From NCBI GenBank assembly GCA_027886885.1, contig JAPCJP010000007.1:1-64000 (forward strand): DNA of 64,000 nucleotides, in the 5' to 3' direction. The notes under the pieces are model-generated. The model did no database searches. It saw nothing but the letters and a program-made list of their open reading frames with translations, and was not told where the DNA came from. Within the stretch, counting starts at the first letter, position 1. Each line of letters begins with the position of its first letter. The translations under genes and the position numbers were made by a program. Positions 7,206 through 36,536 of this stretch are shown piece by piece. The DNA comes from Nitrososphaerota archaeon. GTDB taxonomy: Archaea; Thermoproteota; Nitrososphaeria; Nitrososphaerales; Gagatemarchaeaceae.

Positions 7206-8009
7206 ATGGTAAACTGGGAGTCGATACTCAAGGAGGCTGGCGAGCAGGTCCAGAGCGTCTCGGACAACCTCAAAGGTAGGCAGAGCGGCCTGGAGGCGCA
7301 GGGTCAGGGGGCGGGCGGCGACATCACGATGAAGGTCGACGCCGACGCGGAGAAGGGCATCATGGACCTCGTGCGTGGTCAGGTGGAGGACGTCAGGTTC
7401 GTGACTGAGGAAGCGGGGGTCGTCGGCCCGCCGGGCGCGACCTGGACGGTGATCATCGACCCGATAGACGGCTCAGCCAACTACGCGAGGGGGCTGCCCT
7501 TCTACTGCACGTCAATCGCGGTGCTAGACGGGCCCTCCCTGGAGGACGCCAAGTATGGCATGGTCCGCAACCTCATCAGCGAGGAGACGTACTTCGCCGA
7601 GAGGGGGAAAGGGGCGGAGAGGGACGGGACGCCCGTAAGGACATCCAAGGCCAGGAATCTCAAGGACTCGTGCGTGGGGATAGACATGTCGAAGGCGCCG
7701 CGAGCCACGGTCGAGAGGCTCGTCCCCCTCATCGCGGCTGTGAGGAAGCCGGCGCACTTCGGGGCGAACGCGCTTGAGCAGGCCTTCCTCGCCGACGGCA
7801 AGGTGGACGCCTTCGTCGACATCCGGGACAGGATGAGGGTGGTCGACTTCGCCGCGGGCTACCTCATCGCGAAGGAGGCGGGAGCGGTGATGTCCGACCC
7901 CTCGGGGAAGCCGGTGAACACGAAGGTCTCGCTCGAGGAGAAGTTCAACGTGGTCGCGTCGTGCAACGCCACGCTGCAGGAGAAGATCCTGAAGCTGCTC
8001 AACCCTTGA
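7206..8009 (+). CDS. Inositol monophosphatase/fructose-1,6-bisphosphatase family phosphatase
   Basis: Mg-dependent sugar- or inositol-phosphate phosphatase of 267 residues. Metal-site motifs are present: TEEAG (about 67-71), DPIDGSANYARG (about 85-96) and the C-terminal RVVDFAAG, equivalent to WDxAAG. In archaea the family can act as inositol monophosphatase, fructose bisphosphatase or both; the sequence alone does not decide. It starts at ATG 7206, 59 bp after the peptidase gene. Its end overlaps by 11 bp with a convergent HAD-phosphatase gene. Confidence 0.9.
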   Translation: MVNWESILKEAGEQVQSVSDNLKGRQSGLEAQGQGAGGDITMKVDADAEKGIMDLVRGQVEDVRFVTEEAGVVGPPGATWTVIIDPIDGSANYARGLPFYCTSIAVLDGPSLEDAKYGMVRNLISEETYFAERGKGAERDGTPVRTSKARNLKDSCVGIDMSKAPRATVERLVPLIAAVRKPAHFGANALEQAFLADGKVDAFVDIRDRMRVVDFAAGYLIAKEAGAVMSDPSGKPVNTKVSLEEKFNVVASCNATLQEKILKLLNP

Positions 8010-8601
8010 CCCACGGGGAAGCCGCGAACTCGGCCATGCTCCGGTAGATCGCGTCGGCGGGCGGGCTGTCCTGCCTCTTCCGGATCATCACGAAGCGGAC
8101 CCCGGCTGCACGCGCCGCGTTTAGGTCGTTTATCCTGTCTCCGACGAAGAAGGCCTCGGCCACGTTCGCCTCCAGGCTCTCGAGGGCAGTCCTCAGCTGC
8201 GTCGTCCGGTCCATGGAGTCTTCGCGCGTGAACCTCGAGGCGAAGGACCCCCCGATGCCGAGCGCCTCGAGTATCCTGTCGCAGGCCTCCCTCCCCTGCA
8301 TCGTCACCAGCGAGAGCTTGGCCTTGCGTGAGAGCGCGTCGAGGACGTCCGTCGCGCCCTCCTCGAGCCTCGCTTGAGGGACCGCCTTCGCCTCGTACTC
8401 GTCGATGGTCCTCATCATCGGCCCCAGGAGGAGAGGGTCCTTTGCGACGATGGTCTGGAAGTCGAGGAAGAAGGGGTTGAACGTGAGCGAGGTACCGGTG
8501 AGCCGCTGAAGCTCAGCCCTCACCTTGTCCCACTCGACGGGGAGTGAGATGAGAGTGCCGTCCATGTCGAAGACGACGTATCTGGCGCCCGCACCACCCA
8601 A
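7999..8601 (-). CDS. HAD-superfamily phosphatase
   Basis: Soluble HAD hydrolase of 200 residues. The nucleophile motif is FDMDGTLI (about 10-17); motif II is near LVTMQGRE; the acidic motif is FVGDRINDLNAARAAG near the C-terminus, with a helical cap insert between motif I and motif II as in phosphoglycolate-phosphatase-like members. It is the last gene of a packed minus operon (thymidylate-kinase-like, deacetylase, ATP-grasp, HAD), 4 bp after the ATP-grasp gene, and starts with TTG 8601. The substrate is unknown; the context suggests a phosphorylated sugar or carrier intermediate. Confidence 0.88.
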   Translation of the reverse strand: MGGAGARYVVFDMDGTLISLPVEWDKVRAELQRLTGTSLTFNPFFLDFQTIVAKDPLLLGPMMRTIDEYEAKAVPQARLEEGATDVLDALSRKAKLSLVTMQGREACDRILEALGIGGSFASRFTREDSMDRTTQLRTALESLEANVAEAFFVGDRINDLNAARAAGVRFVMIRKRQDSPPADAIYRSMAEFAASPWVKG

Positions 8602-8605
8602 AGGG

Positions 8606-9691
8606 CTACAGCACCTTCTGCTTTGACCCGTCGTCCTCTCTCCAGAGGTAGGCGCCCACGTCCATGTCCCTGAGGAGGTAGTATCCGTCTGGGAGTAGGT
8701 CGGTCTTCGGGGGCGCGTCGCGCAAGTCCTCGCCCATCCCGAGCCTGACGTAGAGGTCCGCCAAGTTCGCGTACTCGGGCATGCCGAGGTGCTTCACCGC
8801 GATGTATCCCCAGAGCGGCATCGTCGAGTGGAACTTGCCGGAGTCGACCTCCGTGATGCAGGGAGTCCCGTCAGCAGACTCCTTGACGTCCACCGAGTAG
8901 GCGCCGTTTGGGTTCGGGTCGATGGCCCTCACGCCTCGCTGCCCGACCTCGTTGAGGCGCGGGTCGTGGATCGTCCGCGAGACGGATGGCGTCCCCGTGA
9001 TCCCGGACGGCGAGATGTGCCTGAAGGGGTATTCCAGCCTCTCGCGGGAATAGGACGTGACCAGCTTTCCGTCCTTCCATATGCTGTCCCAGGCGACGTT
9101 CCTCCCGGGGAGGTACTCCTGGATGATGAACTCGTCGTAGCCGACCCCGCCCCTCTTTACCCAGAGCTCGATCCAGAGCCTCGCCTCCTCTGGGTCTGCA
9201 CACAGGAGGCTCAGCCTCCCGCCCGCCCCGTGCCTCGCCCTCGCCCACAGCGGCTTGCCCAGCTTGGAGAAGGCTGCGCGGATGTCCGCTTTGCCCGCGA
9301 TGGGCACTGTCTTCGCGACGGGGATGCCGTCCGCCTTAAGCCTCTTCTCTGAGAGGAGCTTGTCCTGCCCGACGCGCATCACCGACGCGGGGGGGAGGAA
9401 AACCCTGCAGGGGACCTTCTCCCTTTTCGCGGAGACGACATAGGCCTCGCTCGAGGGCTGCGGGTGGAGGAAGTCCACCCTCTCCTTCCTAGCTATCTCG
9501 GCGACGCGCGTTATGAACGTCCTGTCGCTGTGCCTCGGCGTCAGATACCTCGCGTCGACGTCCGGGTAGAGGATGTGGTACTTGTTGTAGTCCGTCCCGG
9601 CTATGTAGTATTCCTTCGAGGACGCGCGGAGCGCGCGGACGAAGTTGACGCCGGCGAGCCCGCCCGCGCCGGTGACGAGGACCCTTGTCAA
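8606..9691 (-). CDS. ATP-grasp domain protein (carbamoyl-phosphate-synthase-like fold)
   Basis: Predicted ATP-dependent ligase of 361 residues joining a carboxylate to an amine or other nucleophile; the substrate is unknown. The N-terminus VLVTGAGGLAG is the Rossmann-like pre-ATP-grasp domain. The ATP-binding half includes GKPLWARARHGAGG, FIIQEYLPGRN and a C-terminal ITEVDSGKF segment where metal ligands normally sit. It lies between the polysaccharide deacetylase (6 bp gap) and the HAD phosphatase (4 bp gap), so the three are very likely co-translated. Starts at TTG 9691. A second, divergent ATP-grasp protein occurs at 27814. Confidence 0.85.
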   Translation of the reverse strand: MTRVLVTGAGGLAGVNFVRALRASSKEYYIAGTDYNKYHILYPDVDARYLTPRHSDRTFITRVAEIARKERVDFLHPQPSSEAYVVSAKREKVPCRVFLPPASVMRVGQDKLLSEKRLKADGIPVAKTVPIAGKADIRAAFSKLGKPLWARARHGAGGRLSLLCADPEEARLWIELWVKRGGVGYDEFIIQEYLPGRNVAWDSIWKDGKLVTSYSRERLEYPFRHISPSGITGTPSVSRTIHDPRLNEVGQRGVRAIDPNPNGAYSVDVKESADGTPCITEVDSGKFHSTMPLWGYIAVKHLGMPEYANLADLYVRLGMGEDLRDAPPKTDLLPDGYYLLRDMDVGAYLWREDDGSKQKVL

Positions 9692-27813: not shown

Positions 27814-28848
27814 ATGCCCAAAGGATCTATCCCCGTGTTGGTAGCTGGTATCGGAGGCGCTTCGCTCGGCACAGAAGTCATCAAATCTCTCATGCAAGCG
27901 GGCATATATTCTGTGTTCGGTTGCGACATTTCTCCGTATGCATTTGGCCATTACCAAGGGGGCATCGCCGGCTCCCTTGTCGTAAAGCGGGAAAATTATG
28001 CCGAGTCGCTCCTCGACCTGTGCACATCGCACGAAATCAGAGTTGTGATTCCAGGCGGCGAGGAGCCAGCATCATTGCTGAGCGAATCGGCCTCCCTCTT
28101 CCGTGAAGCGGGCATCCACCTGGCAATGAACTCGCAAGACGTCGTTGCGGTATCCTCAGACAAGAAACGGCTGTTTGAACGCCTGAAAGAGTTAGGTATT
28201 CCGATTCCCTTGACGGTTGCAGTCAGCGATATGGCCGAATACAGTGTCGCCCCTTCCTACCCGGTCGTGATCAAACCAACCACAGGGAGCGGAGGGAGCA
28301 GCCTTGTGTTCATAGCGTCAAACCCCGATGAGGAGAGATGGTTTGTGAAGTATCTCCTCAATAACGGTAGAACTGCCTTGGTGCAGGAGTACATTGCCCC
28401 GGACGAAGGAGAATTCACCGTGGGGGTGCTGTCATTGCCGGACCGGCGCGTCGTTGGATCGGTGGCGATGCGCAGGCTATTCAACGCGAAACTATCCGTT
28501 CTGATCAAGACCGAGGCCGGCGTAATCTCAAGTGGCTACAGTCAGGGTCTGATAGACGATTTCCCGGAGGTACAGGCTCGAGCCGAGGAAATCGCCAAAA
28601 AGAGCGGCAGCGTCGGACCTATGAATATCCAAGGCCGCGTCCGCGACGGAGTTCTTATTCCCTTTGAGATTAACGCGAGATTTTCTGCATCCACATATTT
28701 GCGCGCCATGGCGGGCTTCAACGAAGTCGATCTGTATCTTCGTCACGTATTGCTCGGTGAACATCCTGCAGCTCCGCGCATACGGCCGGGGTATTACCTA
28801 CGCAGCCTGTCTGAGGTTGCCGTCGGGAAAGAGGAGATCAAGCAATAA
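27814..28848 (+). CDS. ATP-grasp domain protein (carbamoyl-phosphate-synthase-like)
   Basis: ATP-dependent carboxylate ligase-like protein of 344 residues. N-terminal Rossmann-like part (VLVAGIGGASLGTE), then YPVVIKPTTGSGGSS (ATP-binding lysine and glycine loop), LVQEYIAPDEGEFTVGVL and the metal-ligand region PFEINARFSASTY near the end, so the active site looks complete. It heads a compact run: its stop overlaps the likely start of the phosphatase/epimerase fusion, followed by the CmcI-like and TylF-like genes. It may attach an amino acid or other acid to a sugar or nucleotide intermediate; this is inference. Confidence 0.87.
   Translation: MPKGSIPVLVAGIGGASLGTEVIKSLMQAGIYSVFGCDISPYAFGHYQGGIAGSLVVKRENYAESLLDLCTSHEIRVVIPGGEEPASLLSESASLFREAGIHLAMNSQDVVAVSSDKKRLFERLKELGIPIPLTVAVSDMAEYSVAPSYPVVIKPTTGSGGSSLVFIASNPDEERWFVKYLLNNGRTALVQEYIAPDEGEFTVGVLSLPDRRVVGSVAMRRLFNAKLSVLIKTEAGVISSGYSQGLIDDFPEVQARAEEIAKKSGSVGPMNIQGRVRDGVLIPFEINARFSASTYLRAMAGFNEVDLYLRHVLLGEHPAAPRIRPGYYLRSLSEVAVGKEEIKQ
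28831..28836 (+). promoter_or_regulatory. Shine-Dalgarno-like site for the phosphatase/epimerase fusion
   Basis: GAGGAG near the end of the ATP-grasp gene, 8 nt before ATA 28845 and 11 nt before ATA 28848. The first GTG in frame is almost 190 nt away, inside the conserved phosphatase domain. Confidence 0.4.
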
Positions 28849-30104
28849 TACGCTGGATCACTGAACGACTGGGTGTCGCCGCCTGCGAGGAATTAGAGCA
28901 GTCACCAGACACTTCGAGCATAGACCTCCGGGACTTTGTCGACAAGGGCGGTAATCAATCCCGTGTCGTCAAGTCGAAAATTGATGAGGCCCTCGAACAG
29001 CTGAGGCGTGGAAGAAAGGTCGTGGTCTGTTGCGATTTGGGCATCTCTCGAAGTGGAGCGGTGGCTGCAGGCATTCTAGCGGTCTCCGAAGGCGTTAGTC
29101 TGGAAGAGGCGATTCGGCGTGTCGTTGCGGCGACCGGACAGACAGCGGTAAAGATTGAAGTGTTGTCATCTGTGCGAAAGGCGATAGGCATGGAGGCACT
29201 TGAGGCTAGCCCGGTGCCAACGGCGGGACACAGGTTGTTAGTGACAGGGGCTTCTGGATTCATCGGTTCGTCATTGATGACCGTCTTGGGACAAAAATAC
29301 GAGACCTTGGCGCCGACAAGCCTGGAAATAGACCTGGTTCGGAACGCCATCGGCTTGGACCTGCTGGTAAAGGACCACGCACCAGATACGGTGATACATC
29401 TCGCTAATCCTAGACTCTATCAATCGACCGAGTCTATTGGAACCGCGCTGGGCATGCTCAAGAATGTATTGGACGTTTGCGTGGAGAACGAGCTGCACTT
29501 GATCTTCCCTAGCAGCTGGGCGATATATTCAGGATACAAGGCGAGGGGGCTGCGGGCAGACGAGTCATTGCCCCCGTATGCCAATGAAACCTATGGCTAC
29601 ACAAAACTCTACTGTGAAGACCTGATCAGGCGATACCATGATCAGCACGGACTTTCTTACACCATACTGAGGTTGAGCCCCGTTTACGGACTTCAGAGCG
29701 ACAGACCTAGGTTCATCTGGACGTTCTTGCAAAAGGCCTTGCGAAGCGAGGAGATAGTTACGCACAAGTACGCCAATGGATTTCCGATATTGGATTTGTT
29801 AAACGTGGGCGACGTCCCTCAGGCCATAGCTGCTGTCGTCGAGCGCCGTGTTGAAGGTTCGGTAAACATCGGGACGGGCGTGGGAACGTCCACCGCTGAG
29901 ATCGCACGTCTGATAGTCGAGCACGTCGGCTCCAAGAGCGACATCAGCCACGTCGAAATCGAAGGATATGCGAGCAACGTAATCATGGATATCAGCAAGG
30001 CGGAAAGAGTCCTTGATTGGACGCCGAAGGTCGGCCTGAAGCAAGGACTAGAGAGCATCGTAAGGGGGCAAGCTGCAAGTCGAGTCAACTGGCGGAAAGA
30101 GTAG
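28845..30104 (+). CDS. Fusion of a dual-specificity-phosphatase domain and an SDR sugar epimerase/dehydratase
   Basis: About 419 residues. The N-terminal ~110 residues look like a DSP-type cysteine phosphatase: IRWITERLGVAACEEL opens the fold and CDLGISRSG is the CX5R active site (Cys codon 29031-29033, about residue 63). After a short linker, an extended SDR starts at LLVTGASGFIGSS (about residue 130) with YGYTK as the catalytic Tyr/Lys, LRLSPVYG and VNIGTGVGTST. Both active sites look intact. GTG 29022 is the first ATG/GTG/TTG codon but lies in the middle of the phosphatase fold, so initiation at ATA 28845 or 28848, supported by GAGGAG upstream, or an undetected sequence error is more likely. 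The fusion suggests removing a phosphate and altering the same sugar intermediate, which is inference. Followed after 4 bp by the CmcI-like gene. Confidence 0.85.
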   Translation: MIRWITERLGVAACEELEQSPDTSSIDLRDFVDKGGNQSRVVKSKIDEALEQLRRGRKVVVCCDLGISRSGAVAAGILAVSEGVSLEEAIRRVVAATGQTAVKIEVLSSVRKAIGMEALEASPVPTAGHRLLVTGASGFIGSSLMTVLGQKYETLAPTSLEIDLVRNAIGLDLLVKDHAPDTVIHLANPRLYQSTESIGTALGMLKNVLDVCVENELHLIFPSSWAIYSGYKARGLRADESLPPYANETYGYTKLYCEDLIRRYHDQHGLSYTILRLSPVYGLQSDRPRFIWTFLQKALRSEEIVTHKYANGFPILDLLNVGDVPQAIAAVVERRVEGSVNIGTGVGTSTAEIARLIVEHVGSKSDISHVEIEGYASNVIMDISKAERVLDWTPKVGLKQGLESIVRGQAASRVNWRKE

Positions 30105-30108
30105 CAAG

Positions 30109-30897
30109 ATGGGAAACAAACCGGACGATTCGAATGCCCGTCGCACCCATCGGGCCACTCATGCTCCGTCGGATTTCTTGGCGGAGGGTCAAAGGGAGAT
30201 CGTAGATCAAGGCGCAGACCAAGACCTCCGCCGACTATCGATGGCTTGGGTCAAGAATACTGCGAAGTACAAGTATAGTTATCACTTCACATGGCTCGGC
30301 AGACCGTTCATCCAGTTCCCCCAGGACATGGTAGTGTTACAAGAGATCATATGGAAGGTAAAACCCGATTTGATCATCGAGACAGGCATCGCCCATGGAG
30401 GGGGACTCATCTTTTACGCCTCGATGCTCGACTTGCTTGGGCTGGATGGGAAGGTCTTGGGTATCGATATCGAAATCAGGCCGCACAACAAAGATGCGAT
30501 TTTGAAGCACCCGATGTTCAAGCACATCATGATGATCGAAGGCTCCTCCGTGGACAAGACAGTTATCTCCCGAGTCCATGAATTAGCCAAGAACAAGGGT
30601 CGGGTGATGGTTATCTTGGATTCTTCCCACACCAGCAATCATGTCCTCGCGGAATTGCGAGCATACTCTCCGCTCGTGAGGAGCGGCAGCTATGTCGTCG
30701 TTCTTGACACTCTGGTCGAGGAGTTGCCGGATGACTTCTTCCCAGACCGCCCTTGGAGAAAGGGCAATAGTCCAAAGACCGCCGTCTCGAAGTTTCTAAA
30801 GAACAACAAGAGATTCGTAGTCGATAAATCAATCGAGGACAAACTTCTCATCACTGTGGCGCCTGGGGGATTCTTGAAGTGCGTGAAAGACCCTTGA
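30109..30897 (+). CDS. CmcI-like protein (cephalosporin hydroxylase/SAM methyltransferase family)
   Basis: 262 residues. LGRPFIQFPQDMVVLQEIIWKV, LIIETGIAHGGGLIFYASML and VMVILDSSHTSNHVLAELRAY match the CmcI family, which has a class I methyltransferase fold and a metal site (DSSH). Family members occur in antibiotic and sugar clusters and often act as, or are predicted to be, O-methyltransferases. Here it follows the phosphatase/epimerase fusion by 4 bp and overlaps the TylF-like gene. The first ~45 residues are polar and probably disordered. Confidence 0.85.
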   Translation: MGNKPDDSNARRTHRATHAPSDFLAEGQREIVDQGADQDLRRLSMAWVKNTAKYKYSYHFTWLGRPFIQFPQDMVVLQEIIWKVKPDLIIETGIAHGGGLIFYASMLDLLGLDGKVLGIDIEIRPHNKDAILKHPMFKHIMMIEGSSVDKTVISRVHELAKNKGRVMVILDSSHTSNHVLAELRAYSPLVRSGSYVVVLDTLVEELPDDFFPDRPWRKGNSPKTAVSKFLKNNKRFVVDKSIEDKLLITVAPGGFLKCVKDP

Positions 30898-31688
30898 AGA
30901 AAAAACCACGCGGCACCAGCGGGACAGAAGAAGAGTTTTCGATGCTAGACCCACGCAACCAGACTGAAAAGGACCGTGAATATGCTGGGCGACTGGCGAC
31001 CTACTACAAGAACAGTCAAGGCGGCAGCATTGACAAGCTCAGGAACTTCACGAAGTATGTCCCGAGACAGACCCTCAGTATCTTCCTAGCCAAGAATGCT
31101 CTTTTCCAGCGGATTCTTGGGATCCATGGACACATCGTGGAATGCGGCGTGTATCTCGGAGCAGGACTGATGACTTGGGGGCAGCTGAGCGCCATTCACG
31201 AGCCGTATAATCACGTCAGGAGGGTCGTGGGTTTTGATACCTTTACGGGATTCGCCAAGGTACATTCCAAGGACAAAGGCAACAAGAACCTCGTATATTT
31301 GGATGAAGGCGGGTTGGCCGCGGATGCGTACAAGGACCTCAGAGAATGCATCGAGCTATACGACCTCAACCGACCAATCGGCCACATTCCGCGAGTGGAA
31401 ATGGTGGTCGGTGACTCCACAAGAACGATCCCTGAATACGTCAAGAGAAAGCCGAGCATGGTCGTTGCTCTTCTCTACCTGGACTTCGACCTCTATGAGC
31501 CGACCAAATCTGCCATCGAGACGCTGTTGCCGCGGATGCCCAAGGGAGCAATCATAGCTTTTGATGAATTGGACCAAGAAGCTTGGCCAGGCGAAACTCA
31601 GGCTCTCTTAGAGACAGTCCCCCTTCGCAAACTGCGAATTGAAAGGTTTCCATTCACCCCTCAACTGTCCTTCGCAGTAATTGAATGA
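30879..31688 (+). CDS. TylF/MycF-like sugar O-methyltransferase
   Basis: SAM-dependent, metal-dependent O-methyltransferase family of 269 residues. IVECGVYLGAGLMTW is the SAM site, VVGFDTFTGF the second SAM motif, and LLYLDFDLYEPTKSAIE with IIAFDELDQEAWPGE carries the metal and catalytic acids of TylF-type enzymes that methylate deoxysugar hydroxyls. GTG 30879 overlaps the previous gene by 19 nt; TTG 30894, overlapping the previous stop as TTGA, is an equally good start. Last gene of the ATP-grasp/fusion/CmcI/TylF run. Confidence 0.85.
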   Translation: MRERPLKKKPRGTSGTEEEFSMLDPRNQTEKDREYAGRLATYYKNSQGGSIDKLRNFTKYVPRQTLSIFLAKNALFQRILGIHGHIVECGVYLGAGLMTWGQLSAIHEPYNHVRRVVGFDTFTGFAKVHSKDKGNKNLVYLDEGGLAADAYKDLRECIELYDLNRPIGHIPRVEMVVGDSTRTIPEYVKRKPSMVVALLYLDFDLYEPTKSAIETLLPRMPKGAIIAFDELDQEAWPGETQALLETVPLRKLRIERFPFTPQLSFAVIE

Positions 31689-31758: not shown

Positions 31759-32967
31759 TTACCCCCACCTCAGTTGGGTCGTGGGCAAGACCCTCTTTAG
31801 GGTCCGGCATACTGTGCGAACCTGTCCTTCGCTCAAATTGAGTGCAGAGGGTAGGTTTACGCCGTATTGAGATATTTCGTATGCATTCTTGTTCCTTGTT
31901 CGGGAAACTGTAGCTTGCTTATTATCGTAGTAGGCAGGAAGAGAACTCAGAGGATCGAAGTAGGGACGACAATCGATGCGACCCAATTCCCAAAGCAATG
32001 AAATGAGTTGTTCCTTTTTCATGCCGAGCCTTTTGTCAAGAATGATGGTCACCATCCAGTAAGTATTCTTGACGTGCTGATCTTCGTGATTTAGGGTAAC
32101 TGCCTTCAAATCCTCTAGTTCTGCCCTGTACCACTCGAATATCAGGCGCTTCTTTTCTATCAGTTCATCAATGCGCTCAAGCTGCGCAAGGCCCATCGCT
32201 GCCTGCAAATTTGACATCTTGTACTTGTACCCTATCTGCACATTTCGAAACATCTTATCGCCTGGTCTTCTTCCGTGGTCCCTCGACACCATGCATTTCC
32301 TGTAGACTTCGTCGTCGGAAGTGACGAGCATCCCGCCTTCGCCCGTAGTCAGGGTCTTCGATCCGTGAAAGCTGAACACCCCTGTGACTCCAAATGTGCC
32401 GGATTTACGTCCCTTGTACTCTGAACCGATAGCTTCAGCAGCGTCTTCTATCATCGCAATCCCGTGTTTCCGGGCGATTCTTGCGATTCTTCCCATGTTT
32501 GGCATCCCTCCGTAAAGATCGACAGGGATCACCGCCTTTGTCCTAGGCGTTATCAATTGCTCGAAGGAATCAGGCGACAGGCACCAACCCCTTCGGTCTA
32601 TGTCTGCGAAGACCGGAGTGGCACCGACATAGCTGATAGGCGCTGCAGTCGCTATCCAGGTGATCTCGGGCACAATGACCTCGTCTCCGGGCCCGATGCC
32701 CAGTGAGAGAAGCGACAGGTGTATCGCTGATGTACACGAAGGAAGAGAGATTGCGTGTTTGACGCTCAGATATTCCGCGAACGCCGCTTCGAACCTTTCG
32801 ATATAGGAGTGCGCATTATCATACCAACCCTTGCTTACTGCGTCTTGGACATAGGCAATTTCTTTCTCCGTGATCCAAGGTCCCGCAACCGGGATGCGCT
32901 CCAAGTGTTCACCCACCTTCTGCGTATGACCCGAAGGGGTCGGATCTCCTTGTGCAGCGTGGCGCAT
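31759..32967 (-). CDS. DegT/DnrJ/EryC1 family PLP sugar aminotransferase
   Basis: Transfers an amino group to a keto-sugar nucleotide; 402 residues. Fold type I features: PSCTSAIHLSLLSLG at the PLP phosphate site, MIEDAAEAIGS with the pyridine-contacting Asp, and FSFHGSKTLTTGEGG with the Schiff-base lysine (about K204). The lysine excludes an RfbH-type dehydratase, which has histidine there. It lies downstream of the rfbF-rfbG-methyltransferase-epimerase run on the same strand, 36 bp after the epimerase, so it may act on the same CDP-sugar. The first ~25 residues look like an extension. Confidence 0.92.
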   Translation of the reverse strand: MRHAAQGDPTPSGHTQKVGEHLERIPVAGPWITEKEIAYVQDAVSKGWYDNAHSYIERFEAAFAEYLSVKHAISLPSCTSAIHLSLLSLGIGPGDEVIVPEITWIATAAPISYVGATPVFADIDRRGWCLSPDSFEQLITPRTKAVIPVDLYGGMPNMGRIARIARKHGIAMIEDAAEAIGSEYKGRKSGTFGVTGVFSFHGSKTLTTGEGGMLVTSDDEVYRKCMVSRDHGRRPGDKMFRNVQIGYKYKMSNLQAAMGLAQLERIDELIEKKRLIFEWYRAELEDLKAVTLNHEDQHVKNTYWMVTIILDKRLGMKKEQLISLLWELGRIDCRPYFDPLSSLPAYYDNKQATVSRTRNKNAYEISQYGVNLPSALNLSEGQVRTVCRTLKRVLPTTQLRWG

Positions 32968-33003: not shown

Positions 33004-33558
33004 TCACCTATCACGAACTCCCGAATCCCTCAGAGGCGGCCAACTGGCGTCCTTTTGCGAGATGATGGGAGAATCGACCGGCCACTTGATTCCGATACGG
33101 GGGTCGTTCCAAGCAATCCCTCTATCCAGGCTAGGATCATACTCTTCGCTTAGTTTGTACATTATCGTTGCGCCACGGCTGAGCACGCAATAACCGTGAG
33201 CGAACCCCTTTGGGATATAAATTAGCGTTTGATTTTCTGAGGACAGTGTGACACCCGCCCATTGTCCGTAGTTTTTGGACCTCTTTCGGATGTCGACGGC
33301 TACGTCGAAGATCTTGCCCTGCAAGACGGCGACTAGTTTGGACTGGGCCTTTGGTGGCTCTTGGTAATGTAGGCCCCTCAGAACGTTTCTTACCGAGTAC
33401 GACAGAAGGTCTTCGACAAACTCTTCCCCTATGCCCGCCGACTTGTACTCCGAACGGTCGTAGATTCGAGTGGTATAACCTCTCTTGTCGCGATGCCCAT
33501 TTCTCTTGATCAAGATGATGTCGGGAATTTTCAGCCTACGGGATTCGAAGCTGGTCAT
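33004..33558 (-). CDS. NDP-sugar 3,5-epimerase (RfbC/RmlC family)
   Basis: Cupin-type epimerase of nucleotide 4-keto-6-deoxyhexoses, about 184 residues. RGLHYQ, KLVAVLQGKIFDVAVDIRK and YIPKGFAHGYCVLS are family signatures including the catalytic histidine region. ATG 33558 overlaps the methyltransferase stop as ATGA; an earlier in-frame start at 33651 would add 31 residues lying inside the previous gene with no family look. Given the CDP-glucose genes upstream, its substrate is probably a CDP-sugar, possibly C-methylated. Confidence 0.9.
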   Translation of the reverse strand: MTSFESRRLKIPDIILIKRNGHRDKRGYTTRIYDRSEYKSAGIGEEFVEDLLSYSVRNVLRGLHYQEPPKAQSKLVAVLQGKIFDVAVDIRKRSKNYGQWAGVTLSSENQTLIYIPKGFAHGYCVLSRGATIMYKLSEEYDPSLDRGIAWNDPRIGIKWPVDSPIISQKDASWPPLRDSGVRDR

Positions 33559-34796
33559 ACGATCACTGGCTCCGGAATTGGAATGATGAACTTCCCTCCC
33601 GCTCGTCTGTAGTCTTCGGATTGCTTGATCACCTCGTCGGCATAATTCCATGCGAGAATCAGAGTATAATCGGGCTTCTCCTCAAGCAGCTTGGAAGTAT
33701 CATAGATCGGTATGTGGTTTCCGGGCATGAAGAGGCCCTGCTTGTGGGGATTCCTATCAACCACGAAGCTGATAGTCTCGCTCCCGACGCCGACGTAGTG
33801 CAGAAGCGTCGTAGCCTTGGCAGCCGCCCCATAGGCGGCAATCTTGGCGTTTTTAGCCTTCAGAGCATTTAGGAGGGCGAGAAGATTTTTCCGCAGTTCT
33901 TGGGCCTTCTCTGGAAGGATCGAATAATACTCGAGCGAATGCATGCCTTCGCTTTCTTCCTTTTCAAGCAGCGCATCGACCGACCCGTCCGATGGGGCTT
34001 CGTAATTGCGGCCAGCGTACACCCTGAGGGAGCCACCCTGAACCGGAATGTGCTCGACCCGCTTGACGTGCAATCCATTTCGGGTGAACAATTCCCGCAA
34101 CGCCTTGAAGGTATAGTAGAACAGGTGTTCGTGATAGACTATGTCAAACTCGCATCTCTCTACAATGTCTTTGACATACGGAATCTCGACAACTGCTATG
34201 CCATTGCTCTTCAGTATCTTCCTGACGCCTCTCATCAAATCGTTCGGGTCAGGCACATGAGCGAACACGTTGTTGGCCACGACCACATCCGCCATGCTTC
34301 CCTGCGCGACAAGCGAATCCGAGAGACTTTCGTTGAAGTAATTGCGTATGGTACGTATCCCGCGTTCGTTGGCAACCCGCGCTATGTTTCCGGCAGGCTC
34401 TATCCCTAACACCGGCGTCCCTTTCTTCGCGAAATACTGCAATAGGTAGCCGTCGTTGCTCGCGACCTCCACGACCAGACTATCCTTGTCGAGCCGGGAC
34501 TCTCGGATGAGCGTATCCGCTAGGCCTTGAGCATGTTGTAACGTCGTTTGAGAGTAAGAGGAGAAGTACAGGTACTCGTCAAACATGACTTCAGGTGAAA
34601 CCGTTTCCAGAAGCTGAAGCACCGTGCACTCAGGGCAAAAGACCAGGATCAATGGATAAGTCGCCTCTGGCCTGTTCAAGTCCTCCCGACGAAGATAGGA
34701 ATTAGCAAGTGGCGTGAAGCCCAAATCCATCACCGGCGAAAGACGAGGATTTCCGCAGATTCTACATCTGTCTATTACTCTTGCCGGTTTGCTCAC
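33555..34796 (-). CDS. SAM-dependent sugar C-methyltransferase (zinc-binding + methyltransferase + C-terminal domain)
   Basis: 413 residues with the three-part layout of NDP-hexose C-methyltransferases (as in TylC3/EvaC-type enzymes): N-terminal zinc cysteines CRICG and CPEC, a SAM domain with VVEVASNDGYLLQYF, and a C-terminal domain with YGAAAKATTLLHYVG and FIIPIPEPVIV. YHEHLFYYT carries the conserved active-site Tyr/His region. Such enzymes methylate C3 of 4-keto-deoxy sugars. It overlaps the CDP-glucose dehydratase gene by 35 bp and the epimerase by 4 bp. A paralogue is at 55415. Confidence 0.92.
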   Translation of the reverse strand: MSKPARVIDRCRICGNPRLSPVMDLGFTPLANSYLRREDLNRPEATYPLILVFCPECTVLQLLETVSPEVMFDEYLYFSSYSQTTLQHAQGLADTLIRESRLDKDSLVVEVASNDGYLLQYFAKKGTPVLGIEPAGNIARVANERGIRTIRNYFNESLSDSLVAQGSMADVVVANNVFAHVPDPNDLMRGVRKILKSNGIAVVEIPYVKDIVERCEFDIVYHEHLFYYTFKALRELFTRNGLHVKRVEHIPVQGGSLRVYAGRNYEAPSDGSVDALLEKEESEGMHSLEYYSILPEKAQELRKNLLALLNALKAKNAKIAAYGAAAKATTLLHYVGVGSETISFVVDRNPHKQGLFMPGNHIPIYDTSKLLEEKPDYTLILAWNYADEVIKQSEDYRRAGGKFIIPIPEPVIV

Positions 34797-35784
34797 CCAA
34801 GAACTCCTCGTAGAACCTTATTGTACGCTCAACCCCCTCATCCATGCTGAATCTTGCTTCCCAACCTAAACTTCGCTTGGCTTTCGCGGGACTGATGCTC
34901 AAGCACCGGATTTCGTTGGAAGCCTCATTGAGAATTGTCGGCTTTGCGTAAGATCCCATCAGGCGCGATACTTTGTTTACTACGTCGATGACCTTCAACG
35001 GATGCCCGTTCGAGAAGTTGAAGGCTTCCCCCGAGAGATCGGAATCGGCTGCCAGCTTCTCGGCGAGCGTAAGATACGCTGACACCGCGTCCTCAACGTA
35101 AATGTAATCCCGTACGAATTCTCCGTCCGACCTTATCACAGGTATACGGCCCTCCAGGATGGCTCGAATCGTGCCAGGAACCACCCGACTCCAGTTAAGG
35201 TCCCCTTCACCGTATATGTTCGCGCATCTGGTTATGGCTGCCCTCATGCCATACGTAACGCTATACGATCTTGTGATCATGTCCGCGCAAGACTTGCTCA
35301 CGTCGTAGGGATAGAGGCTCCTGAACTCTCTATCTTCCGTCGCCGGACCATCTGAGCACTCCCCATAAACATGGTCTGAAGACGACTGAACCAGCTCAAC
35401 AGAGGGGCTGTTCCTACACGCCTCGAGGACTGCTAATGTCCCGCGCACATTGACGTCAAAGGCACCTGAAGGGTTCTCGTTGGCTCTTTCAACTATGCTT
35501 TGAGCCGCCAAGTGAAATACTGTTTCAATCGAATGCTTTCGAAGCGTCTTTGCAAGCAATCGTCCGTCGAGCACGTCGCCCTTTGTCCTCAAGATCTTCG
35601 GCGCTGTCGCAAGCCTGTCGAAGGAGAACTCTTCGGGTTCTCTGACGTCTATGCCAACTACCTTGGCCCCCATCCGAGAGAGCGTCTTGCTTAGCCGTTG
35701 ACCTAGGAAGCCCGACGACCCGGTGACAAGCACTGTCCTGTCCCTCCAAAAGCGGTTTGAAGCTAGGCGTCCCATATTTTCCAC
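34762..35784 (-). CDS. rfbG: CDP-glucose 4,6-dehydratase-like SDR
   Basis: Converts CDP-glucose to CDP-4-keto-6-deoxyglucose; 340 residues. FWRDRTVLVTGSSGFLGQRL (cofactor site), FHLAAQSIVERANENP and YPYDVSKSCADMI (catalytic Tyr and Lys) follow the RfbG pattern; ANIYGEGDLNWSRVVPGTI is also typical. It overlaps the cytidylyltransferase gene by 22 bp, which fixes its substrate well. ATG 35784 and ATG 35775 are both possible starts. Confidence 0.9.
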   Translation of the reverse strand: MENMGRLASNRFWRDRTVLVTGSSGFLGQRLSKTLSRMGAKVVGIDVREPEEFSFDRLATAPKILRTKGDVLDGRLLAKTLRKHSIETVFHLAAQSIVERANENPSGAFDVNVRGTLAVLEACRNSPSVELVQSSSDHVYGECSDGPATEDREFRSLYPYDVSKSCADMITRSYSVTYGMRAAITRCANIYGEGDLNWSRVVPGTIRAILEGRIPVIRSDGEFVRDYIYVEDAVSAYLTLAEKLAADSDLSGEAFNFSNGHPLKVIDVVNKVSRLMGSYAKPTILNEASNEIRCLSISPAKAKRSLGWEARFSMDEGVERTIRFYEEFLGEQTGKSNRQM

Positions 35785-36536
35785 GGTGCGTTTCCTTGCT
35801 GCCAGAGACTCTCTAACAGACGTAGGTCTCGAGGCGTATCCATGCTCTGCCAGAACCCGTCGTGCTTGTACGCCCCAAGCTTTCCCTCTTTCGACAACCT
35901 TTCCAATACGTCTCTTTCCAAACTGCTATTGTCGTCGGTGACATAATCGAGCACTTCGGGTTCCAACACCATGAATCCTCCGTTTATCCATCCTTCCGAT
36001 GTCTGTGACTTTTCGGTGAAAACGGAGATTTTGTCCCCACTGAACTCTACACCTCCAAACCTAGCAGGAGGGCGAACAGCCGTAATCGTCGCTGTCACTC
36101 TGTGTGATTGATGGAATTTGAGCAGATCCCGAAGACTTACCGTGGACACGCCGTCCCCGTAAGTCAGCATGAATGTTTCAGAGCCCACCCAGCGACCTAA
36201 GCGCCTCACTCTTCCCCCGGTCAGAGTGTTGTAGCCTGTGTCAACCAGATGGACTATCCAGTCCTCCGCGCGCTCGTTCCGAATCTTGATGTCCCCGGTC
36301 GCAAGGTTGACTGTTAGGTCGCTGTTCCCATTACGGTAGTCTAAGAAGTACTTCTTGATTTCTGCGCCCTTGTTTCCTAGAGCAATCACGAACTCTTTGA
36401 AACCAAAGTGCGAGTAGTGCTTCATGATGTGCCACAAGATGGGTCGCTCTCCTATCTCTACAAGGGGCTTGGGTTTGACGTCGGTTTCGGGAGCCAAGCG
36501 CGTGCCTAGCCCCCCAGCGAGGATGACAACTTTCAT
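35763..36536 (-). CDS. rfbF: Glucose-1-phosphate cytidylyltransferase
   Basis: Makes CDP-glucose from glucose-1-phosphate and CTP, the first step of the CDP-deoxysugar route. The 257-residue length is standard. The nucleotide loop LAGGLGTRLAPET, KPKPLVEIGERPILWHIMKHY, LTYGDGVSTV with the metal Asp, and INGGFMVLEPEVLDY are clear RfbF signatures. First gene of a minus-strand run rfbF-rfbG-methyltransferase-rfbC-aminotransferase. About 190 bp of apparently non-coding sequence lie upstream. Confidence 0.95.
   Translation of the reverse strand: MKVVILAGGLGTRLAPETDVKPKPLVEIGERPILWHIMKHYSHFGFKEFVIALGNKGAEIKKYFLDYRNGNSDLTVNLATGDIKIRNERAEDWIVHLVDTGYNTLTGGRVRRLGRWVGSETFMLTYGDGVSTVSLRDLLKFHQSHRVTATITAVRPPARFGGVEFSGDKISVFTEKSQTSEGWINGGFMVLEPEVLDYVTDDNSSLERDVLERLSKEGKLGAYKHDGFWQSMDTPRDLRLLESLWQQGNAPWKIWDA

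Follow-up and report, generated by a model that had tools for sequence, protein, structure and literature searches.

A compact dual-specificity-phosphatase (DSP) domain, fused in one archaeal gene to an extended SDR, probably works as a small-molecule phosphatase together with the ATP-grasp ligase encoded upstream of it. The gene lies in a 64,000-nucleotide stretch of a Nitrososphaerota contig (the window), and it directly follows the ATP-grasp gene, or overlaps its end, in all five genomes in which we find the fusion. The ATP-grasp partner had no place in the interpretation given in the initial annotation. That annotation described the two fused domains and offered two readings of them, either dephosphorylation and modification of a sugar intermediate by one polypeptide or phosphotyrosine control of the SDR.

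The fusion gene and its two domains

The fusion gene and its parts are as follows.

28833..28836, plus strand: GGAG, which could act as a Shine-Dalgarno-like sequence, 8 nt 5′ of the ATA at 28845
28845..30104, plus strand: DSP-SDR fusion gene, 419 codons and a stop; start set by alignment to four full-length fusions
28845..29195, plus strand: compact DSP domain, residues 1-117 (Pfam, alignment, model and fold match)
28932..28943, plus strand: codons 30-33 with Asp30 and Asp33, candidate general acids
29031..29051, plus strand: CDLGISR phosphate-binding loop, Cys63 to Arg69 (sequence and alignment)
29196..29228, plus strand: linker, residues 118-128, of low model confidence
29229..30101, plus strand: extended SDR (Epimerase) domain, PF01370, with TGASGFIG and with YGYTK at residues 250-254

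Translation of 28845-30101 gives one open frame of 419 residues, in which the DSP domain, the linker and the extended SDR follow each other. The frame annotated earlier at 28845-30104 on the plus strand is indeed open and translates as described, but its start is irregular. It opens with ATA at 28845, and ATG, GTG and TTG are all absent in frame upstream of this position. The same alignment column holds ATG, GTG, GTG and ATG in the four relatives; either an AUA start is in use, or the base was changed in the assembly or in the strain. The GGAG sits inside the 3′ end of the ATP-grasp gene. With a start at GTG 29022, as given in a mechanical ORF listing, the DSP domain would lose half of its residues.

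The N-terminal part had been described as a DSP-like domain of about 110 residues with an intact CX5R motif, and our analyses agree with both statements. Residues 1-117 match the Pfam DSPc family (PF00782) at 1.6e-6 and 28.4 bits, short of the 33.5 bits that Pfam sets as gathering score; a stand-alone relative (L019) clears this score with 38.7 bits. The Cys codon 29031-29033 of the motif CDLGISRSG encodes residue 63, and the loop has the CX5R(S/T) form (C63-DLGIS-R69-S70). In an alignment of seven DSP sequences, distant stand-alone relatives included, its residues C63, G66, S68, R69 and S70 do not vary. Asp30 and Asp33, which lie 33 and 30 residues ahead of Cys63, are both invariant in the same alignment. 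The general acid of ShufPTP, D63, stands 30 residues before its Cys, C93 (PMC12848742), and by this analogy Asp33 or Asp30 is the likely general acid of the fused domain.

The initial annotation had proposed structure prediction, and AlphaFold2 modeling of the DSP part alone with seven sequences gave a DSP/PTP fold with a pLDDT of 88.4. The top PDB fold matches of this model in Foldseek are ShufPTP, an engineered or putative ancestral protein, and Tk-PTP, with TM-scores on the query of 0.77 and 0.76, respectively. Both share with the fused domain the Cys-based fold, the CX5R loop and an Asp about 30 residues upstream. However, they are stand-alone proteins of about 150 residues that were studied as protein tyrosine phosphatases, and the identity in the fold match is 17-21%. 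The phosphatidylglycerophosphate phosphatase PTPMT1 is a DSP-fold enzyme with a small-molecule substrate; it matches the fused DSP weakly in sequence and differs in being a mitochondrial lipid phosphatase without an SDR fusion. Two stand-alone mini-DSPs of 128 residues, encoded in a Nitrososphaeraceae genome (G066; L019 1429-1815 and L039 1414-1800), are distant relatives of the fused domain and are sited outside sugar clusters.

The C-terminal part, residues 129-419, matches the Epimerase family PF01370 at 1.5e-29 (103.5 bits, gathering score 20.9). As annotated earlier, it is an extended SDR in the same frame, and its NAD loop (TGASGFIG) and YxxxK motif (YGYTK) are intact. The closest folds are the Thermotoga UDP-glucose 4-epimerase TM0509 and also MoeE5, which have the fold, the NAD loop and YxxxK in common with it. 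Unlike in these enzymes, the catalytic Ser is not conserved in the fused clade. The equivalent of GalE Ser124 (residue 224, 29514-29516) reads S/G/S/N/G across the five fusions, with Ser in the window's own copy. Thus, a standard 4-epimerase should not be assumed. The domain reached no equivalog cut-off for a sugar SDR with a name (GalE, RmlB, RmlD, Fcl and others), the best score being 75 bits against a cut-off of 365. A Gly at the catalytic Ser site is likewise seen in the TylF-linked SDR of another genome (G085, L007). In a full-length AlphaFold2 model from the five fused sequences (pLDDT 80.5), the joint at residues 118-125 is disordered, with a pLDDT below 50.

Distribution of the fusion and its sugar cassette

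The same fusion recurs in four other genomes at 43-49% identity, so that the five fusions fall in three phyla.

L004 1498-2733: fusion in G092, an archaeon of the same order, 45% identity
L044 8001-9245: fusion in a Sumerlaeota MAG
L045 8001-9251: fusion in a Desulfobacula MAG (Desulfobacterota)
L052, minus strand: fusion in the Desulfobacterota genome G757

An assembly artefact, the objection that the initial annotation had raised against itself, is ruled out since five genomes share the DSP-SDR architecture. The search it had suggested, for a DSP followed by an epimerase in archaea, does yield a second archaeon, but this scope was too narrow, as the fusion is found in bacteria too. The fusion is rare, with 2 cases among 398 genomes of the phylum of the window, 2 among 395 Desulfobacterota, 1 among 40 Sumerlaeota and 1 among the 180 genomes of G092's family. 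These counts are lower bounds, because the strict pattern of the first scan missed at least one fusion (that of G757). IMG/VR yielded no relative, the plasmid matches listed contained SDRs only and no DSP-SDR, and the ATP-grasp gene had no match among the INPHARED phages.

In the SDR tree, the fused SDRs form a single clade with a support of 100/100 but no supported sister group; the fusion event thus probably happened once. The ATP-grasp protein of the window is 59% identical to that of the Sumerlaeota genome versus 49% to that of G092, and the TylF-type gene of the window is likewise nearer to the Sumerlaeota copy than to G092's. Together with the scattered presence of the fusion, these cross-phylum identities suggest transfer between archaea and bacteria. 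The contig itself is unlikely to be a bacterial contaminant; an ATP-dependent DNA ligase gene lies in its left flank, as does a gene for a type II/IV secretion ATPase.

The genes around the fusion in the window are the following.

27814..28848, plus strand: ATP-grasp ligase of the PRK12767 family (NF009402), by profile match
30109..30897, plus strand: CmcI/rhamnosyl O-methyltransferase-like gene (PF04989, 4e-88), conserved beside fusions
30879..31688, plus strand: TylF-like O-methyltransferase gene (Pfam and locus comparison)
31759..32967, minus strand: DegT-type sugar aminotransferase (profile match)
33004..33651, minus strand: RmlC-type 3,5-epimerase (212.9 bits, cut-off 155.75)
33555..34796, minus strand: sugar C-methyltransferase (PF08421/PF08484)
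34762..35784, minus strand: CDP-glucose 4,6-dehydratase-like SDR, below the equivalog cut-off
35763..36536, minus strand: glucose-1-phosphate cytidylyltransferase, RfbF (349.3 bits, cut-off 300.25)

The upstream ATP-grasp protein scores 313 bits against NF009402, for which the curated cut-off is 218. The longer fusion loci share the genes for RfbF, the CDP-glucose 4,6-dehydratase-like SDR, the C-methyltransferase, RmlC and DegT, and genes of the TylF and/or CmcI type. Judged by these gene families, the cassette product would be an amino 6-deoxy sugar that is CDP-derived and C-methylated. In another genome (G522, L144; 19 kb examined), the CDP-sugar genes are present along with those for the C-methyltransferase, RmlC, DegT and CmcI, but both the ATP-grasp and the DSP-SDR gene are absent. 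Thus, the ATP-grasp and DSP-SDR genes appear to be a separable module. Beyond its first 8 kb or so (8000-64000), the window is mostly glycan-assembly-like, with glycosyltransferases, flippases, aminotransferases and an asparagine synthase-like gene.

Phosphatase folds beside related ATP-grasp genes

Seven ATP-grasp proteins group in one clade of their tree with a support of 100/98, which unites four fusion-linked ligases with those of G098, G077 and Deltaproteobacteria bacterium Smac51. In G098 and G077, a separate HAD gene comes after the ATP-grasp gene and an SDR gene comes next, and their cassette, like that of the window, has RfbF and C-methyltransferase genes. In Smac51, a metallophosphoesterase gene lies directly 5′ of the related ATP-grasp gene. 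The gene order in S. meliloti (L106) is PHP phosphatase, ATP-grasp and SDR, while Ruegeria and Roseibium have ATP-grasp and then HAD.

We scanned the immediate same-strand neighbors of 16 Desulfobacterota ATP-grasp loci with Pfam, fusions excluded; the loci are partly related and so represent fewer than 16 independent events. A phosphatase-fold neighbor was present in 14 of the 16 (seven metallophosphoesterases, five HAD and two PHP enzymes), and a fifteenth locus (L100) has a metallophosphoesterase one gene beyond the adjacent one. In comparison, DegT genes of Desulfobacterota, used as the control, had one phosphatase-fold protein (a HAD) among 45 neighbors. The 14 phosphatases among 27 ATP-grasp neighbors gave Fisher p values of 7e-8 with a control count of 0 and 5e-6 with a count of 2, for loci that are not fully independent. 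In four of the Desulfobacterota loci L087-L104 (L090, L091, L095 and L096), the ATP-grasp gene comes after a metallophosphoesterase gene and before NeuB.

Trios of ATP-grasp, phosphatase and SDR are seen for four folds, namely PHP (S. meliloti L106; L092), metallophosphoesterase (L089, L100), HAD (G098, G077) and DSP. The PRK12767 loci with HAD, metallophosphoesterase or PHP (G098, Smac51, S. meliloti and the Desulfobacterota) resemble the window in the gene slot and often in the presence of an SDR. They differ in that the phosphatase has another fold and is a separate gene, and their function is undescribed in the open literature searched. The SDRs in these loci need not be the closest relatives of the fused SDR, and the trio products may differ. 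The swapping of unrelated phosphatase folds beside the same ligase argues for a small-molecule chemical step rather than a specific protein regulator. A second ligase-phosphatase pair in the window fits the same view: on its minus strand, an ATP-grasp gene (8606-9691) is followed by a HAD phosphatase gene (7999-8601). Against this reading counts the result that the Nitrososphaerales ATP-grasp paralogues (L060-L085) have no adjacent phosphatase of these kinds.

Proposed function and its alternatives

The direct fusion of the DSP to an SDR of the NDP-sugar type in 5/5 genomes would fit a phosphatase that needs no ligase and works on sugar phosphates of the pathway, such as a sugar 1-phosphate or hexose phosphate, with the fusion channeling the intermediate to the SDR. 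This was the first idea of the initial annotation, and we consider it rather unlikely, since phosphatases accompany the ATP-grasp gene even where the neighboring SDR is absent or different. Moreover, SDRs of this type mostly act on nucleotide sugars, and these should not be substrates for a monoester phosphatase. More broadly, the earlier idea of dephosphorylating and modifying a sugar intermediate gains from the ATP-grasp and nucleotide-sugar context in 5/5 genomes and from the HAD, metallophosphoesterase and PHP genes of related loci.

For the alternative of phosphotyrosine control of the SDR, we find no support in the gene context. The DSP domain might act in a Wzb-type manner and dephosphorylate Tyr (or Ser/Thr) residues, either of the SDR or of a protein for polysaccharide assembly, as protein tyrosine phosphatases are its top PDB fold matches, and enzymes of this kind are known to regulate the export of polysaccharides. 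However, three unrelated folds, those of HAD, metallophosphoesterase and PHP enzymes, occupy the same slot, and no tyrosine kinase gene was noticed on inspection of the long ORFs near the fusion. We therefore regard a regulatory role as improbable. We are equally doubtful that the domain is catalytically weak or structural, binding a phosphorylated intermediate or holding the ATP-grasp enzyme beside the SDR. It is short (about 117 residues) and stays under the Pfam DSPc cut-off, but every aligned relative, even the distant stand-alone ones, has Cys63, Arg69, Ser70, Asp30 and Asp33.

A small-molecule phosphatase partnered with the ligase has a characterized parallel in C. jejuni. There, serinol-P or ethanolamine-P becomes linked to glucuronate as an amide through the ATP-grasp domain Cj1438C, after which Cj1435, a HAD phosphatase, hydrolyses the phosphate off the amidated product (PMC11800379, PMC11800397). 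Both systems have an ATP-grasp ligase and a dedicated phosphatase in a surface-polysaccharide cluster, and the genes are side by side here too. The C. jejuni phosphatase is a HAD enzyme without an SDR fusion, whereas that of the window is a DSP fused to an SDR. The ligase of C. jejuni is TupA-like, is fused to a glycosyltransferase and may lie outside the PRK12767 family. Its acceptor is a uronic acid, the glucuronate of the growing polymer, and no sugar dehydrogenase was identified within the cassette of the window; these points count against our proposal. The phosphate comes with a phosphorylated building block in C. jejuni, and we propose the same origin for the fusion cassette by analogy.

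From the gene content, we infer that the DSP-SDR protein is a bifunctional biosynthetic enzyme of the nucleotide-sugar cassette. The cassette would make a CDP-activated, C-methylated, amino 6-deoxy sugar, to which the ATP-grasp enzyme would join a phosphorylated small building block by an amide bond, with either a phospho-acid attached to the amino group or a phospho-amine attached to a carboxylate. Next, the phosphate would be stripped by the DSP domain through attack by Cys63 and phosphate binding by Arg69, with Asp30 or Asp33 as the general acid. Acting on the same substrate series, the SDR domain would oxidise, reduce or epimerise the sugar or the building block, and the CmcI/TylF-type enzymes would then O-methylate. 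The specific phospho-amide chemistry, modeled on C. jejuni, is plausible but tentative. With similar reserve, we suggest that an ATP-grasp sugar-amidation module took over a tyrosine-phosphatase fold as its dedicated phosphatase, which was fused to the SDR acting on the same intermediate. DSP, HAD, metallophosphoesterase and PHP enzymes, which are unrelated in fold, might then be interchangeable in a ligate-then-dephosphorylate route by which archaea and bacteria make decorated surface sugars, a route both widespread and so far undescribed.

The component families are known, and the open-licence literature searched yielded neither the DSP-SDR fusion, nor a DSP in the ATP-grasp slot, nor the trio of ATP-grasp and phosphatase genes with an SDR. 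If our proposal is true, the many ATP-grasp genes of polysaccharide clusters that are still unassigned would gain a function class, each with a phosphatase partner of any fold, and a signaling role should not be the default reading of prokaryotic DSP-type genes. The trio would also give a concrete, testable pathway for an uncultured archaeon, with bacterial relatives that could be used for enzymology.
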